From NCBI GenBank assembly GCA_025934995.1, contig JAICWC010000007.1, positions 1 to 50,148 on the forward strand: 50,148 nt of DNA, written 5' to 3'. Of the stretch, positions 35,761 through 42,774 are shown in pieces. A program made the translations under genes and the position numbers. A model generated the notes under the pieces. It did not search any database. It was not told the DNA's origin and was given only the letters and a program-made list of their open reading frames with translations. Every line of letters starts with the position of its first letter. The first letter of the stretch is position 1. This stretch comes from Thermoleophilia bacterium. Its GTDB lineage: Bacteria; Actinomycetota; Thermoleophilia; Gaiellales; Gaiellaceae.

Positions 35761-35971
35761 ACGAAGGGGCGGCTGCGCAAGATCTCCCCGCCGTGGGCGT
35801 CTTCTAGAGAGCGCACGGCCGCGTCTACCGACTACGGCATCCTCTTCGGCCTTCGTTCCGACGGCTAAGGGCCAGGGCGTCCGTACGAAGTCAGGCGCGC
35901 CGTGCGCGCGACACCGAGCTTCGCGGCGCGTGATGGGTGGAGCCCGACACTGCGACACATAGGATCCCCGG

Positions 35972-36421
35972 ATGTCGGTCGACGTTCTCACAGAGGTCGA
36001 AATCGACCGGCCGCGAGCCGACGTCGCCGCATTCGCCTCCGATCCGGACGTCGCGCCGCGCTGGTACGAGAACATCGAGTCCGTGGAGTGGAGAACGCCG
36101 AGGCCACTCGCTGTCGGCGCACGCATTGCCTTCGTCGCGCGCTTCCTTGGTCGCCGCCTGGCGTATACGTACGAGGTCACGGACCTCCTCCCAGGCGAGC
36201 GGCTCGTGATGAGCACCAAGGAAGGGCCGTTTCCGATGGAGACGAGTTACGAGTGGGCTGACACGCCCACAGGTGGAACGCGGATGACCCTTCGGAACCG
36301 AGGCGAGCCGAGCGGCTTTGGCAAGGTGAGCGCGCCGATCATCGCCAGGGCCATGCGCCGGACGAACCGCAAGGATCTGGCTCAGCTCAAGCACATCCTG
36401 GAGTCGACCGCGGACCGATGA
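35972..36421 (+). CDS. SRPBCC family protein
   Basis: EIDRPRADVAAFASDPDVAPRWYENIESVEW ... GTRMTLRNRGEPSGF. Confidence 0.85.
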   Translation: MSVDVLTEVEIDRPRADVAAFASDPDVAPRWYENIESVEWRTPRPLAVGARIAFVARFLGRRLAYTYEVTDLLPGERLVMSTKEGPFPMETSYEWADTPTGGTRMTLRNRGEPSGFGKVSAPIIARAMRRTNRKDLAQLKHILESTADR

Positions 36422-36467
36422 GTTGACCCGCGCTGCGGGAAACGTGGCCGACGAAAGGCGCCCCTCG

Positions 36468-36518
36468 GCGGTTTGCGCAGTGTCGGTAGTGGGCGGAACC
36501 AGACATTGCGCAAACCGC
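36468..36518. repeat. Island palindrome copy 1
   Basis: GCGGTTTGCGCAGTGTC - ggtagtgggcggaacca - GACATTGCGCAAACCGC (17-bp arms, one G/T mismatch). Confidence 0.9.
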
Positions 36519-36631
36519 GTGGTTGTGGCAGTGGGACCGATCTCGATCGTCTAATGCACCGTGCTGGGCGGTCGAGCTGTCCGCTGTGGTGTCCCGAGGG
36601 GACACTTGCGGCCTATGTCAAACTAGGAGGT

Positions 36632-36772
36632 GTGACTCAGCGCAGAGCCAAGTCGAGCACCAAGTCGACGTCTTCCCGGAAGACGACCACCAGCCGTGGC
36701 ATAAGGTCCGCGACGAGCAAGGTCAAGGCGAAGACCTCGATCGACTTCCCGCGTTCAGTTCGCGGGAAGTAG
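36632..36772 (+). CDS. Possible antitoxin-like small ORF upstream of PIN gene
   Basis: Open frame with AGGAGG just upstream; low complexity basic VTQRRAKSSTKSTSSRKTTTSR...; ends 3 nt before PIN start. Confidence 0.4.
   Translation: MTQRRAKSSTKSTSSRKTTTSRGIRSATSKVKAKTSIDFPRSVRGK
36744..36770 (+). promoter_or_regulatory. Stem-loop over the ribosome-binding region of the PIN gene
   Basis: ACTTCCCGCG-TTCAGTT-CGCGGGAAGT, perfect 10-bp stem whose 3' arm contains GGGAAG 6 nt before GTG 36776. Confidence 0.6.
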
Positions 36773-36775
36773 CGC

Positions 36776-37369
36776 GTGCGGCCACGGGGACGGCCGCCCT
36801 CCACGAGGCAGGTTTTGTCGTTCGAGGCCGCAGAGACACCTCTTCCGGAGGAGGTTCTCCTCGACACGAGCTTCGTTGTCGAGGCGTTGCTCGTCTCGCA
36901 GCCGCTCCACGCGGCAGCAGTCGACTTTCTTGTTCGACTGGCAACCGAGGACGTTCGGATCAGGTTCAGCTCGATGTTGGAGCTCGAGCTGGCCGAAACG
37001 GCCTTCCAGATCGCTCTCAAGGAGAACCATCCGAGAGATTGGAAACGCTTTCGTCACGATGGGCGGGCACGGAGGCGTGCCAGTCGCCTCATGAGCGGAG
37101 TGGAAGAAGCCTGGGCTTCAGTTCTCGCCTATGTCGACTACGTGCGGATCGACGTCGATGACGTCATCGAGGAAGTACCAAGGCTCATGCGTTCCTACGG
37201 TCTGGCTTCGTATGACGCAGTACATGCGGCCACGGCTCTGAGAGGAGACCCGGTAGGGATCGTGACGACCGACGTGGGTTTTTGCGCACTTCCGCCGGCG
37301 AGCACGACAATCTTCACCGACTCGACTCGGGTCGCTCGTTGCCGCGAACTTCGAGCGCGACGTCGCTGA
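36776..37369 (+). CDS. PIN domain protein (VapC-type toxin candidate)
   Basis: VLLDTSFVVEALLVSQPLHAAAVDFL ... ELELAETAF ... LASYDAVHAATAL ... IVTTDVGF acidic PIN signature. Confidence 0.8.
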   Translation: MRPRGRPPSTRQVLSFEAAETPLPEEVLLDTSFVVEALLVSQPLHAAAVDFLVRLATEDVRIRFSSMLELELAETAFQIALKENHPRDWKRFRHDGRARRRASRLMSGVEEAWASVLAYVDYVRIDVDDVIEEVPRLMRSYGLASYDAVHAATALRGDPVGIVTTDVGFCALPPASTTIFTDSTRVARCRELRARRR

Positions 37370-37380
37370 CCTGCACGTCC

Positions 37381-37429
37381 TGGTTTGCGCAATGTCAGTT
37401 ATGGGCGGAACCAGACATTGCGCAAACCA
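37381..37429. repeat. Island palindrome copy 2
   Basis: TGGTTTGCGCAATGTC - agttatgggcggaacca - GACATTGCGCAAACCA, perfect 16-bp arms, same 17-nt spacer length as copy 1. Confidence 0.92.
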
Positions 37430-37515
37430 CGCGCTCGTGGACGCTGAGGCGCTCTCGGTCGTCTGACCCAGATTCGGCGGCTTCGTCCGTCCCATCGCCG
37501 CGATACCGTCGCCGC

Positions 37516-38295
37516 ATGTCGATCCTCGTGGTGCAACTGGTCCCGGAGGGCCTGCTCTTCGGCGCTGACCGGAATATCACGTCGCAGCTCACGATGCGCG
37601 ACGGCAGCGTTGAGATCGTGGTCACGGGCCAGAGCGAGCGGCCGAAGGTGCTGAAGTGGCCGAACCACGAAGTGATACTCGGCTATGTCGGCGCGGCCGA
37701 GATCTCCCAGCTTCCAACCGACCAGTGGCTGTACGCCTTCATAGGTCGCAACCTTGAGTTCCCCGACCTGAAGACGTTGGCACAGATGCTGACCGCTGAG
37801 CTCAACGCGCTCTACACAGCCGGCGACTTCGACGGGCCGTCGATTCTTCACCTCGGCGGTTTCGAGCGTGTAGACGCCGAGTGGACACCGCGCGTCTACT
37901 TCATCCGTAACACGACGGCGCTCAACCCGGATGGGAGTTACGACGTCGGCGACCGCTTCGATTGCTCCGAGGAGCTTGCGCAGCCGACCTATTTCGGGGG
38001 CAAGAGCGGCAGCGAGATACGCGACTACGTGCGCAGCCACTTCTTCAGCTTTCGCCAGGGCTTCGATCTTGGCTCGTTCGGGGCGATCGATGAGTCGCTT
38101 AGGGCTGCGATGCAGGCGATCATCCACACTCACCCGAGCAAGCCACATCCCGTGCCGACGACGCTGAATGAGTGGTCGAAGCATGTCGCGCTCGCCGTCC
38201 ATGGCTACGGTGCCTACTTCGCGGCGTTCTATCCGCCATTCCAGCAGTACGTCGGCGGCGGGGCCGATGTTGTCTGGTCAGCATGGCCGTCCTAA
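37516..38295 (+). CDS. Hypothetical protein, possible Ntn-hydrolase/proteasome-like fold
   Basis: MSILVVQLVPEGLLFGADRNITSQ...VLKWPNHEVILGYVGAAEI resembles proteasome-type N-terminal strand pattern. Confidence 0.55.
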   Translation: MSILVVQLVPEGLLFGADRNITSQLTMRDGSVEIVVTGQSERPKVLKWPNHEVILGYVGAAEISQLPTDQWLYAFIGRNLEFPDLKTLAQMLTAELNALYTAGDFDGPSILHLGGFERVDAEWTPRVYFIRNTTALNPDGSYDVGDRFDCSEELAQPTYFGGKSGSEIRDYVRSHFFSFRQGFDLGSFGAIDESLRAAMQAIIHTHPSKPHPVPTTLNEWSKHVALAVHGYGAYFAAFYPPFQQYVGGGADVVWSAWPS

Positions 38296-38329
38296 CAAGC
38301 GATCCGCGTCTCTAAGCTAGCGTCCGCTT

Positions 38330-38923
38330 ATGGAGCAGCGATGGTGGCTTGATGACGCCGAGGCCCGGAGTGCCGAAGCGCCTCGCAGTTTCTTCATTCC
38401 GGAGCGAGGCCGCCGTGAAGCCCTCAGTCCCGGTGAAGTCGTCAAGCTGATCTTCTTGTTCGAGCCTCCAGCATCGAACGGGATGACCGGCGAGCGGATG
38501 TGGGTCGAGATTAAGTCTGCGACGGACGGCCGCTACGTCGCGGAGTTGCTGAACCAACCGGCGCACATCAGTAGCCTGAAGCCGGGTGACGCGGTGACGT
38601 TCGCGCCTGAGCACGTCGCGGCGATCCAGACGTCCGAGGAAGAGCTCGGCTATGCCGTCGACGACTACGCGGCTGTCGGACAGCAGGTCAGGGAAAACGA
38701 CGAGTTCCCTCAGCTTGTCGCACGCGTCGCTCGGGATGCGCGTCAGGGAGGATCAGACAGCGGGTGGCGCCTGGCTGCGGTCGACGATGACGGCCCGCCC
38801 GACTGGTGGGACCTCGGCTGGATCACCGACAAGTTCCCGGAAGTCGAGGCACTCTTTCGGCTTGATCCCGACGCGGGCTCCTGGCGTTGGGATGCCGAGA
38901 CGCGGTCGTACGTCGCGGAGTGA
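38330..38923 (+). CDS. Hypothetical protein, weakly DUF2314/immunity-protein-like
   Basis: MWVEIKSATDGRYVAELLNQPAHISSLKPGDAVTFAPEHVAAI. Confidence 0.5.
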   Translation: MEQRWWLDDAEARSAEAPRSFFIPERGRREALSPGEVVKLIFLFEPPASNGMTGERMWVEIKSATDGRYVAELLNQPAHISSLKPGDAVTFAPEHVAAIQTSEEELGYAVDDYAAVGQQVRENDEFPQLVARVARDARQGGSDSGWRLAAVDDDGPPDWWDLGWITDKFPEVEALFRLDPDAGSWRWDAETRSYVAE

Positions 38924-38968
38924 GTCGCCAGCGCGCCCTACCGAGCCGCCCTCGCGCAGAGGAACTGC

Positions 38969-39607
38969 TCAGCGCTTTGAGGCGGCGTCTCGTACGCCTT
39001 CGGCAATCTCGGCTGCGCGCTGACCGTCCAGCTCGTTGAGGAGCGCCGCGAGCTCTCGTCGGCGGTTAATCATGAACGCGCAGGCGGCACCGTTGCTGAG
39101 CCGGAGATCCAGGATGCCGGGATCGCCAGGGCCCGGCTGATTTACGACGGCGGCCTCCTCGATCTCGGCCCAATCCAGGTGCAGTCGCGGCGCCCGAAGG
39201 ATGCGCCGCGTCCAAGTGTTGGGCGCCCAAGAGATGCCGTCAGAGCTAACGAACAAGCGCCCTAGGAGCCACCCGCCGACCAGGAACCCGAGCTTTACGC
39301 GCCGTAGCTGCTGCTGGAACTGCGGGACGCGCTTGAGCAATGCGAGCTGTGGCGCGGTCGAACAGGCGAAGGCGTGCAGCGCTGCGCCCTCTCGGCGCGC
39401 CTTCCGGTTGAGTCGCCACGTCCAGGTCACGAGGACGACGGCAGTGACGACAACGGTGATGGTCAGCAACAACCACGAGGCACCGGCGGTGCCCGTGGCG
39501 ATCCGCACGACGAGGACGAGTAACGCTACGGTCGCGAGTAGCCACGGCGAGCGACGCAGCGCACGGCCGGCCGGCGTGAGTTGCTTGTCCGCGGGCGAGG
39601 CATGCAC
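38969..39607 (-). CDS. Hypothetical membrane protein
   Basis: Two predicted TM helices (WLLATVALLVLVVRI, ASWLLLTITVVVTAVVLVTW) and cytosolic PH-like C-terminus. Confidence 0.6.
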   Translation of the reverse strand: MHASPADKQLTPAGRALRRSPWLLATVALLVLVVRIATGTAGASWLLLTITVVVTAVVLVTWTWRLNRKARREGAALHAFACSTAPQLALLKRVPQFQQQLRRVKLGFLVGGWLLGRLFVSSDGISWAPNTWTRRILRAPRLHLDWAEIEEAAVVNQPGPGDPGILDLRLSNGAACAFMINRRRELAALLNELDGQRAAEIAEGVRDAASKR

Positions 39608-39698
39608 GTGAAAGGTACGTCTTGGTCCGCTTACACGACGCCGACCCGCGGGCTGACACGAGGGCTCGGGATTGCTCGGGTTCTGTAAATCCTCAGCT

Positions 39699-39799
39699 GC
39701 GCCTGTGATTTTTCGGGGGTCAAAAGCGCCTGTCTATGTAGAGAGCAGTTTCGGCGTCTGTCACTTTTCGGGTGTCGAAAGGGCTTCTCTCTAGTGGGA
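39699..39799. repeat. Two imperfect direct repeats, about 54 bp apart
   Basis: CTGTGATTTTTCGGGGGTCAAAAGCGCCTGTCT and CTGTCACTTTTCGGGTGTCGAAAGGGCTTCTCT. Confidence 0.75.
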
Positions 39800-39868
39800 G
39801 GTCCGCACAGAGCCGGACCGTGCCCGCAGATCGTTTGACCCTGGCTCCTCTGCCGGTCCCGAAGGTGA

Positions 39869-40096
39869 TTGCCGAAGAAGACGAGTGCGATCAGGTTGCT
39901 GTCGCCGCGGCGGGTGCCGCTGACGGCTGAGCAGCAGCGGCTGGTGGTGGACCTGCTTGCTGACTTGTTGTTGGATGCGGCGGCGAAGCGCCGGGCCGTC
40001 CGTTCTCCCGGCGTCATCGACGGCGGTTGCGATGGCGTTATCGGCGGCGCGATCCCGTCGGTGGAGGAGCGCGGAGATGCGCGTGAGGCCGCGTGA
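39869..40096 (+). CDS. Small hypothetical protein upstream of replication-relaxation gene
   Basis: VPLTAEQQRLVVDLLADLLLDAAAKRRAV; TTG start. Confidence 0.5.
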   Translation: MPKKTSAIRLLSPRRVPLTAEQQRLVVDLLADLLLDAAAKRRAVRSPGVIDGGCDGVIGGAIPSVEERGDAREAA

Positions 40097-40134
40097 TCCG
40101 GCCGATGCGCAGACTCCGACATAGAGGGGAAGGT

Positions 40135-41235
40135 GTGAGTTCTGATTCATCCGCGAAGCCGCGGCCGGTGCGGGTGAGCGTCGAGCGCGTGTTCGAGCTC
40201 GTCCGCCATCTGACTGAGCGTGACCGGGAGATCGTCATGTGCCTGTACGACCAGCAGGTGCTGACGACCGATCAGCTGGCGCTGTTGTTCTTCTCGTCGA
40301 GGCGTCGGGCGCAGGATCGGCTGCTGTTCCTCTATCGCGAGCGCGTCGTCGACCGCTTCTATCCACCGTCCCGGTTCGGTGCCGGCAAGCCGCAGGCGCA
40401 CTGGCTGCTCGACGAGGCGGGCGCGGTGCTCGTCGCGGCGATGGTCGGCGTGGAACGGAAGCGGCTCGGCTGGCAGCGGCGCGAGGACTGGTCCTCGCAT
40501 CCGCAGCTCGCGCACCGGCTGGAGTCGAACCGGTTCGTCACCGACTTGATCGCCGCGACGCTCCCCGACCCGACGCTCGGAGTAGCCGCCTGGTATTCGA
40601 GCCGGGATGCGGCGGCGCGACTGCTCGGCGACCGCGCGAGCGAGTACGTCCGCCCCGACGCCGGGTTCATCCTCGACACCGCGCGTGGCCCGATCGAGTG
40701 CTACCTGGAGTGGGACCGCGGCACCGAAACGGGCGAGCGGCTCACCTGGAAGTTGGACGGATACCGCCTCGCCGAAGGCCGCCTGCACTACGACGCGACC
40801 GAGGCGTGCAACGTCCTGTTCGTTGTCCCCGGCCCCGGCCGGATCACGACGCTGCGCCGCGGCTACGAAGAGCTCGAGCCGCGCCGCGAGCAACACCGCG
40901 AGAGCTCGCGCCTGGTCAACCTCGATGGCAGCTGGCCCCTCCTTGCCGCCACCGCCGCCGACCTCGGCCGCGAAGGCCCGCTCGGGCGGATCTGGCAGTC
41001 GATCACCGAACCGGACGATCCGCCGCGGGCGCTGACCGAGCTTCCGGCCCGGACAGACCTCGGGCGGAACGATCCCGGCGTCGCGCTCGGCCGCCGCTGG
41101 CGGCACGACCGCCCCGGCTTCTGGGAGCGGCTTTCGCCGCTCGGGCGCGTCCCCGCGGCGGCGGACTTGCGTCCGTCCGAGATCGCTGGCTTCATGGACG
41201 ACCCAGAGCCCGACGAGGAGGGGTCATGGCGATAA
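40135..41235 (+). CDS. Replication-relaxation family protein
   Basis: VSVERVFELVRHLTERDREIVMCLYDQQVLTTDQLALLFFSSRRRAQDRLLFLYRERVVDRFYP...; RBS gaggggaagg before GTG. Confidence 0.82.
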   Translation: MSSDSSAKPRPVRVSVERVFELVRHLTERDREIVMCLYDQQVLTTDQLALLFFSSRRRAQDRLLFLYRERVVDRFYPPSRFGAGKPQAHWLLDEAGAVLVAAMVGVERKRLGWQRREDWSSHPQLAHRLESNRFVTDLIAATLPDPTLGVAAWYSSRDAAARLLGDRASEYVRPDAGFILDTARGPIECYLEWDRGTETGERLTWKLDGYRLAEGRLHYDATEACNVLFVVPGPGRITTLRRGYEELEPRREQHRESSRLVNLDGSWPLLAATAADLGREGPLGRIWQSITEPDDPPRALTELPARTDLGRNDPGVALGRRWRHDRPGFWERLSPLGRVPAAADLRPSEIAGFMDDPEPDEEGSWR

Positions 41236-42743
41236 CCAGGGTCTGCATCTACACCCGCATTTCAACCGACGAAGAGAACCAGCCGACCTCGCTGCACTCG
41301 CAGCGCGAACGGCTGCAGGCGTTCTGCAAGGCGCAGGAGGGCTGGCGGATCGTCGCCCACAAGCAGGACCAGGCGACCGGCACCAAGCTCGACCGGCCGG
41401 GGTTGCAAGCAGCGCTCGACCTCGCCCGCTCAGGTGCGATCGACACGCTGCTCGTCTACCGCGTCGATCGCCTCTCGCGGAAGGTGCGGCAGCTTGCGCA
41501 ACTAACCGAGGAACTTGACGCGCTCGACGTCGTACTCAAGTCGGCGACCGAGCCGTTCGACACCGGCGCCGCAGCGGGGAGGATGATGCTGCAGATGCTC
41601 GCGGTGTTCGCCGAGTTCGAACACGCCACGATCGTCGACCGCATCAGCGCAGGCATCGAACGACGAGCGAAAGAAGGACGCTGGTTCGGCGGCCGACCGC
41701 CCTTCGGCTACGTGTTCTCGAACGAGGAGCGGGTGCTCGTCCCCGATCCGGTGAAGGCTCCCGTCGTGCGCCGCGTGTTCGACCTGTACGCGCGCAAGCG
41801 GCTCGGAACGAGAACGATCGCGCAGCAGCTCCGCGAAGAAGGCGCCCCGGCACCATCGGCGGGCTGGGGGCACCCGGCGGTGCACTGGATCGTCAACAAC
41901 CCCACCTACGTCGGGAAGATCCGCTGGCGCGACAAAATCTTCGACGGCGTCCATGAACCGCTCGTGGACGAGTTCACCTTCGCGAAGGCGCAGGCGATCA
42001 TGCGCGAGCGCGGCGAGCACGCGAAACGGCGCGGCAACGCATCCGACTTCGTCCTATCCGGGCTACTTCGCTGCGGGAAGTGCGGCAAGGCGTACATCGG
42101 TATGAGCGCGAACGGCAACGGCGGCCGCTACCACTACTACGCCTGCAGCGGACGACAGAAGTACGGGCCGAAGGCATGCGACGGGGAACGGCTCCCACGC
42201 GAACGAGTCGAGCAAGCCGTGATCCACCAACTCGCGGCGATCTACCGCGACGAGCAGACCGTCACCCAAGCGTTCGCAAAGGCCAACGCCGACGCCGAGA
42301 AACGGCGGCCCGAGTTCGAGCAACGGCTCGCCTCGATCGACGCCGAGATCGCCCGCGCCGAGCAGTCACTGGAGCGCTACTACGACGCCTTCGAACAGGG
42401 CAAGCTCTCGCCCGAACGCTGCGAAGACCGGCTCACCCGCCTCCAGGCCCGCCTCGACGACCTGCACGCGCAGGAAGCCGAGCTCTCCCTTCAGGCGCCG
42501 GACGAGGCAACACAGGCGCCCACGGCGGCCGATCTTGCCGCCGTCGCGGACATGCTCGAAGAAGTCATCGCCGACGCGGACCCGCAAAAGGCGAAAGCGC
42601 TCCTCCGGCTACTCATCGACGACTTGCGCGTCAACGGCCGCGCCGAGATCCTTCCGACCTACCGGCTCGTCACACCGGCGGTTTGCGCAATGTCCGAAAA
42701 AGTGGGCGCGGCTGGGATCGAACCAGCGACCCCTCGCGTGTGA
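41226..42743 (+). CDS. Large serine recombinase
   Basis: VCIYTRISTDEENQ (catalytic Ser), YRVDRLSRK, recombinase domain, zinc ribbon LLRCGKCGKAYIGMSANGNGGRYHYYACSGRQKYGPKAC, coiled coil; ORF end runs into tRNA gene. Confidence 0.93.
   Translation: MAITRVCIYTRISTDEENQPTSLHSQRERLQAFCKAQEGWRIVAHKQDQATGTKLDRPGLQAALDLARSGAIDTLLVYRVDRLSRKVRQLAQLTEELDALDVVLKSATEPFDTGAAAGRMMLQMLAVFAEFEHATIVDRISAGIERRAKEGRWFGGRPPFGYVFSNEERVLVPDPVKAPVVRRVFDLYARKRLGTRTIAQQLREEGAPAPSAGWGHPAVHWIVNNPTYVGKIRWRDKIFDGVHEPLVDEFTFAKAQAIMRERGEHAKRRGNASDFVLSGLLRCGKCGKAYIGMSANGNGGRYHYYACSGRQKYGPKACDGERLPRERVEQAVIHQLAAIYRDEQTVTQAFAKANADAEKRRPEFEQRLASIDAEIARAEQSLERYYDAFEQGKLSPERCEDRLTRLQARLDDLHAQEAELSLQAPDEATQAPTAADLAAVADMLEEVIADADPQKAKALLRLLIDDLRVNGRAEILPTYRLVTPAVCAMSEKVGAAGIEPATPRV
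42678..42694. repeat. Half copy of the island palindrome (left arm only)
   Basis: GCGGTTTGCGCAATGTC matches left arm of copies 1 and 2; followed by cgaaaaaGTGGGCG into tRNA. Confidence 0.9.
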
Positions 42744-42774
42744 AGCGAGTGCTCTCCCGCTGAGCTACGCGCCC
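42704..42774 (-). tRNA. tRNA-Val (CAC)
   Basis: Minus strand GGGCGCGTAGCTCAGCGGGAGAGCACTCGCTTCACACGCGAGGGGTCGCTGGTTCGATCCCAGCCGCGCCC folds as cloverleaf; anticodon CAC. Confidence 0.92.

Follow-up and report, generated by a model that had tools for sequence, protein, structure and literature searches.

Two near-identical palindromes bracket a gene for a PIN-domain protein in a 50,148-nt stretch of a Thermoleophilia bacterium genome (assembly GCA_025934995.1, contig JAICWC010000007.1), hereafter the window. We interpret these palindromes, with a probability of about 0.82, as junctions in a tandem array of units (E0, E1, and E2; Table 1) inserted site-specifically at the 3' end of a tRNA-Val gene, and the insertion agent is most likely the large serine recombinase encoded next door. 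A sequence-only reading of the window had proposed a cassette comparable to those of integron attC arrays. The cassette interpretation is supported and the cassette architecture stands, but a palindrome is not one unit's own site, as it is in attC; judged from sequence, the architecture points to double-stranded attP/attB recombination by a serine integrase rather than to a folded, single-stranded attC.

Palindromes, arms, and the reconstructed attachment site

Each palindrome comprises 15-bp arms around a 17-nt spacer, with one mismatch in the left arm of palindrome 1 (GGTTTGCGCAGTGTC) and none in palindrome 2. As the sequence-only reading had described, the spacers are of identical length and contain a core (TGGGCGGAACCA) of the same sequence and orientation. 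The intervening 865 bp hold a PIN gene (PF01850, 2.7e-8) and a small upstream open reading frame (ORF). Single-stranded folding of palindromes 1 and 2 gives z = -6.4 and -6.7, respectively. At ≤3 mismatches, the window contains five copies of the arm, against 1.1 expected; the fifth copy, which is exact and was overlooked in the earlier reading, lies at 42680–42694, where the recombinase gene runs into the tRNA-Val gene. Within the 2.85-Mb assembly, exact arms are confined to this locus and one recombinase–tRNA locus on contig C64; rather than being scattered genome-wide, the arm goes with serine-recombinase elements and the ends of tRNAs.

The element on C64 encodes a recombinase 89% identical to that of the window and ending in the same way, at tRNA-Ala, and is collinear with E2 (78% identity across 3.1 kb). 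Its other end is GTGGGCGGAACCAGACATTGCGCAAACC, and its two ends, when joined, form a symmetric 50-bp site (15-bp arm, 9 nt, GG, 9 nt, 15-bp arm). Serine-integrase attP sites are laid out in this way, and each window palindrome is accordingly composed of one unit's right end, the GG core, and the following unit's left end. For the recombinase, the reconstructed attP is GGTTTGCGCAATGTCCGAAAAAGTGGGCGGAACCAGACATTGCGCAAACC.

The position of the GG core is constant, opposite C71–C72, at tRNA-Val, tRNA-Ala, tRNA-Lys, tRNA-Phe, and transfer-messenger RNA (tmRNA) genes. Left ends carry CAAACC at positions 19–24 and the tRNA carries the T-loop CGAACC at 14–19, with the AACC of the arm exactly 5 bp further out than the AACC of the T-loop. 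When a profile of positions 16–24 of the left ends (calculated with pseudocounts) was slid along the tRNA, the 5-bp shift was the only positive one of 17. The attP half-sites of the A118/LI system have the zinc-domain motif at positions 16–24, and in attB it is 5 bp nearer the core (PMC3783163). The single positive shift, which is sequence evidence, therefore supports the tRNA end as an attB half-site, and would explain the use of many tRNAs. The spacing is 6 nt at some right ends, the PIN unit's among them, which is one codon less than the 9-nt form. The 6-nt right ends (AGTTAT) were seen only on recombinase-less units (L041, L042, L043, L045, L048, L050, and the window at 36470 and 37382); one of these ends retains a remnant of a recombinase (TYRLVVPEVCAMSVM), which hints at another lineage of recombinase, though none was found.

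By the mechanism we propose, a unit in circular form would have a single attP made up of the P arm, 9 or 6 nt, GG, 9 nt, and the P' arm, and the recombinase encoded by the tRNA-adjacent element would join this attP to the 3' end of the tRNA gene, reading the GG opposite C71–C72 and the T-loop motif CGAACC. Units would be added beside the tRNA, leaving P-GG-P' palindromes between them; the array could grow at the tRNA because the tRNA half would survive each insertion. The 912-bp PIN unit, which lacks a recombinase, would have been moved in trans. For this scheme, we infer catalysis, circle formation, movement in trans, the order of insertion, and the mobility of the cassettes.

The recombinase and the tail encoded by left ends

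Resolvase, Recombinase, and zinc-ribbon domains are all above Pfam cut-offs in one protein of ~500 aa, for which the best NCBIfam match is CcrB (171 bits vs. a cut-off of 900). Phage and plasmid recombinases are distant, their best hits having at most ~32% identity. A sister recombinase (57–58% identity; L053 and L054, genome contig C38, G047) has its own arms (GGTTCGCG...CGCGAACC) in the same symmetric 50-bp layout about GG.

The recombinase reading frame crosses the GG core (window 42680–42743 and 37382–37466; L054 around 7547), so that the enzyme has one C-terminus when integrated at a tRNA and another in an array or circle. Left ends encode a conserved peptide of ~20 residues (GGTxxCANx, a short variable stretch, and a hydrophobic end) that is in frame with the recombinase of the upstream unit. 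The stop codon of this tail falls at nt 56–68 in 28 of the 39 left ends (shuffles: mean 3.8, maximum 9). Conservation within the tail is highest at second codon positions (0.55, vs. 0.40 at first and 0.34 at third positions, and ~0.30 past the stop), which suggests selection at the protein level, now or in the ancestor of each end. The frame of the G047 recombinase (57% identical) continues across a junction of this kind to finish with the tail; at the tRNA, the window recombinase instead terminates in GIEPATPRV. In Dehalococcoides, dsiB overlaps its att site, and the enzyme has been proposed as perhaps complete only on the circle or beside a neighboring island; the overlap region is divergent (McMurdie et al., PMC3146451). 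That cassettes lacking a recombinase conserve the tail is, within the literature searched, which mostly excludes subscription journals, a new finding.

We tentatively put forward, as a possibility rather than a firm expectation, a serine-recombinase, integron-like system that may read the universal T-loop/CCA end and in which left ends may supply the missing last ~20 recombinase codons, such that the downstream cassette or tRNA would set the C-terminus and perhaps activity or direction. Reading of the universal T-loop and CCA end would allow many tRNA genes to host arrays, and a recombinase recognizing the conserved T-loop could serve for multi-site integration. A question raised in Dehalococcoides would also become testable: whether a recombinase whose gene crosses att needs a tail supplied by a neighbor or by the circle (PMC3146451).

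Units in related genomes and alternative explanations

The search yielded some 40 different left ends, most of them in soil metagenome-assembled genomes (MAGs) of one Thermoleophilia family. By one exact pattern, the ends are present in 16 of 399 genomes of the class, with few occurrences outside the window's family; the left-end pattern was unmatched in viral contigs. Lone matches in Methylobacterium, Pseudomonas, Halogranum, and similar taxa were taken as chance, because ~19 of the 25 bases are specified and 257 Gb were searched. Contig C77 of G007 (L063) is Acidobacteriota in the public record, and the genome is placed in the window's genus; it is probably mislabelled.

Units adjoin tRNA-Val, tRNA-Ala, tRNA-Lys, and tRNA-Phe genes and, once, a tmRNA gene; an end of a recombinase element is situated at the 3' end of a tmRNA gene (L055 5183, G020 C97), a target of the Dehalococcoides type. 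One 5.9-kb contig (L151) carries four complete consecutive units of 0.9–1.3 kb. Recombinase-less intervals bounded by two recognized ends (n = 25) have a median length of 1.28 kb, and contain a single called ORF in 16 cases and at most two in 21, although a junction that has decayed could go unnoticed within an interval and the simple codon score has its faults (an antisense ORF outranks the PIN gene in the PIN unit). The varied single-gene cargos that the sequence-only reading had suggested looking for are found in many genomes, mostly one gene to a unit: cytochrome P450, GNAT, guanylate cyclase, methyltransferases, FAD mono-oxygenase, MFS, Phd-PIN, PemK, HEPN, SRPBCC, and unknowns, in both orientations. 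Unit ends have up to ~28 identical nt in common, and the interiors are unrelated. A Phd-PIN unit has a counterpart (74% identity) at a different tRNA in a second genus.

Empty sites, also suggested earlier as a check, are represented by one precise filled/empty pair at an orthologous tRNA-Lys gene within one genus. The site is filled by a 1.13-kb unit in G108 and empty in G110, a different species in which a short spacer that ends in CGGCGATGG separates the shared flanking gene from the tRNA; further congeners have longer inserts with unrecognized ends. The tRNA-Val loci of congeners have no left flank in common with the window, and so provide no empty site for the window itself. G011 was not used as an empty site for the left flank of the window, because its adenylate-cyclase-like gene has only ~50% protein identity and what it has of the tRNA is a fragment of 43 bp. 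At L148 7030–7072, on a contig with no full tRNA, 43 bp of the tRNA-Val 3' half look like a displaced copy left by a tyrosine-integrase island.

Several points weigh against recombinase-driven insertion of mobile units. No circular form or strain-level gain or loss was seen in these fragmented MAGs, and the filled/empty evidence is limited to one pair. Serine integrases normally join only attP with attB (PMC3783163), so that an array could grow at attR only if these rules were relaxed. Asymmetry is seen in the right ends that have 6-nt spacing, among them the PIN unit's, and many right ends are decayed. A close recombinase is often missing from array-rich genomes (G108 among them), in which other recombinases lack these ends. 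This absence, together with the retention of the last recombinase codons at the right end of several recombinase-less units and the longer persistence of left than of right ends, is in favor of fossil accretion, whereby tandem recombinase elements would have shrunk by deletion to immobile remnants (two ends and a surviving gene) that undergo no active exchange. We regard this explanation as unlikely, though deserving of serious consideration: unrelated cargos occupy most of each unit, identical ends flank unrelated interiors, and one unit type is found at different tRNAs in two genera, all of which small units inserting repeatedly would explain better than recurrent deletion.

The inverted ends of ~15–26 bp on each unit would also be expected of transposase-moved units with terminal inverted repeats (miniature inverted-repeat transposable elements, MITEs). 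This origin is very improbable given the strict tRNA 3'-end site and fixed orientation, the shared core in place of target duplications, and the fact that a serine recombinase element has the arms at both its ends. Even less credible is an integron, in which a tyrosine integrase acts on attC cassettes as a folded single strand: the units are single-gene and the palindromes foldable, but every junction is composed of two different unit ends, the arrays end at tRNA 3' ends, the serine recombinase bears the site within its own gene, and cargo orientation is mixed, although the genome was not searched for tyrosine integrases. Ordinary intergenic palindromes (bidirectional terminators or repetitive extragenic palindromic-like repeats) would be stable intergenic hairpins too, and can be dismissed, since the exact arm is at just one other genomic locus rather than scattered as predicted, isolated half-arms are also located at recombinase-element ends and tRNAs, and Rfam finds only the tRNA.

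Relation to known systems and other features of the units

The system of tRNA-targeted units works like tandem serine-recombinase islands (the ssrA islands of Dehalococcoides and the staphylococcal cassette chromosome, SCC) at the scale of integron cassettes. In common with the ssrA islands (DsiB; McMurdie 2011, PMC3146451), there is a serine recombinase, tandem units are located at the 3' end of an RNA gene, many units lack a recombinase (approximately half of the islands), and the 3' end of the recombinase gene overlaps the att site. The islands have ssrA as their sole target, with a cut in the T-loop and 20-bp ssrA direct repeats, whereas several tRNAs and tmRNA, a C71–C72 core, and palindromic junctions are found here. 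They are ~12 kb (the described vcr type) with a six-gene module, vs. units of ~1 kb with mostly one gene, and have a second small recombinase (DsiA), whereas E2 and the C64 element each encode Replic_Relax or a homologue and one recombinase.

Phage serine integrases of the A118/LI type are similar in domain order and in having a 50-bp attP whose zinc-domain motif is displaced outward by 5 bp relative to attB, but use one main site and form no cassette arrays. Integrons and clusters of attC sites lacking integron-integrases (CALIN) likewise consist of small units in rows, most with a single gene, that meet at palindromic junctions, and some of the arrays have no recombinase nearby; here, however, the recombinase is of the serine rather than tyrosine type, the target is a tRNA rather than attI, the site is built from two unit ends, and cargo lies in both orientations. 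SCC resembles the present system in that a large serine recombinase (CcrA/CcrB/CcrC) inserts tandem cassettes, and CcrB provides the best NCBIfam match, albeit far under its cut-off. SCC has a single protein-gene target and much larger units. The novelty lies in the miniature single-gene units and the many tRNA targets; defining features of ssrA islands and SCC that were tested are absent. Some uncultured soil bacteria seem to have integron-like rows of single-gene cassettes through a different kind of enzyme and, if true, exchangeable rows of this kind evolved outside tyrosine-recombinase integrons.

Table 1. Coordinates of the array units, junctions, and genes in the window.
Feature	Position	Strand	Details
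Unit E0 (~0.56 kb)	35936–36490	+	SRPBCC (polyketide cyclase-like) gene 35972–36421, PF10604; left boundary less certain
Palindrome 1 (E0/E1 junction)	36470–36516	+	Right end of E0 GGTTTGCGCAGTGTC-GGTAGT, GG core 36491–36492, left end of E1
Unit E1 (912-bp PIN cassette)	36491–37402	+	No recombinase; bounded by two recognized junctions
E1 left-end tail frame	36492–36554	+	GGTRHCANRVVVAVGPISIV, then stop; conserved
Small basic ORF (46 aa)	36632–36772	+	Possible antitoxin, from sequence
PIN-domain gene	36776–37369	+	PF01850; start perhaps 36812
Palindrome 2 (E1/E2 junction)	37382–37428	+	Right end of E1 GGTTTGCGCAATGTC-AGTTAT, GG core 37403–37404, left end of E2
Unit E2 (5.3-kb recombinase element)	37403–42703	+	Abuts tRNA; collinear with C64 element
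E2 left-end tail frame	37404–37466	+	GGTRHCANHALVDAEALSVV, then stop; conserved
E2 ORF	37516–38295		
E2 ORF	38330–38923		
E2 ORF	38969–39607	-	
E2 Replic_Relax gene	40093–41235		Followed by recombinase
Large serine recombinase (505 aa)	41226–42743	+	Last codons inside tRNA gene (GIEPATPRV)
E2 right end (attR)	42680–42705	+	Arm, CGAAAAAGT, GG core 42704–42705
tRNA-Val(CAC)	42702–42774	-	Insertion target; 3' end supplies attB half-site

The left end of E0 is decayed (TGGGTGGAGCCCGACACTGCGACACAT), with a profile score of 6.8 that ranks 8 of 100244 positions, and its frame (GGARHCDT) resembles the conserved GGTRHCAN. For E1, no homologue of the PIN gene was found among 15 congeners, and searches of the unit against Rfam, PADLOC, and NCBIfam gave no other identity; a PIN homologue in G018 was rejected as a cassette copy, the gene there not being within a cassette. 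The first ORF of E2 encodes a 259-aa protein with no match in Pfam, NCBIfam, or PADLOC. In the C64 element, the non-coding stretch upstream of the Replic_Relax–recombinase genes is present in two copies (L009 11950–12400 and 13370–13800), between which there is a methyltransferase gene, possibly cargo acquired via recombination between elements.
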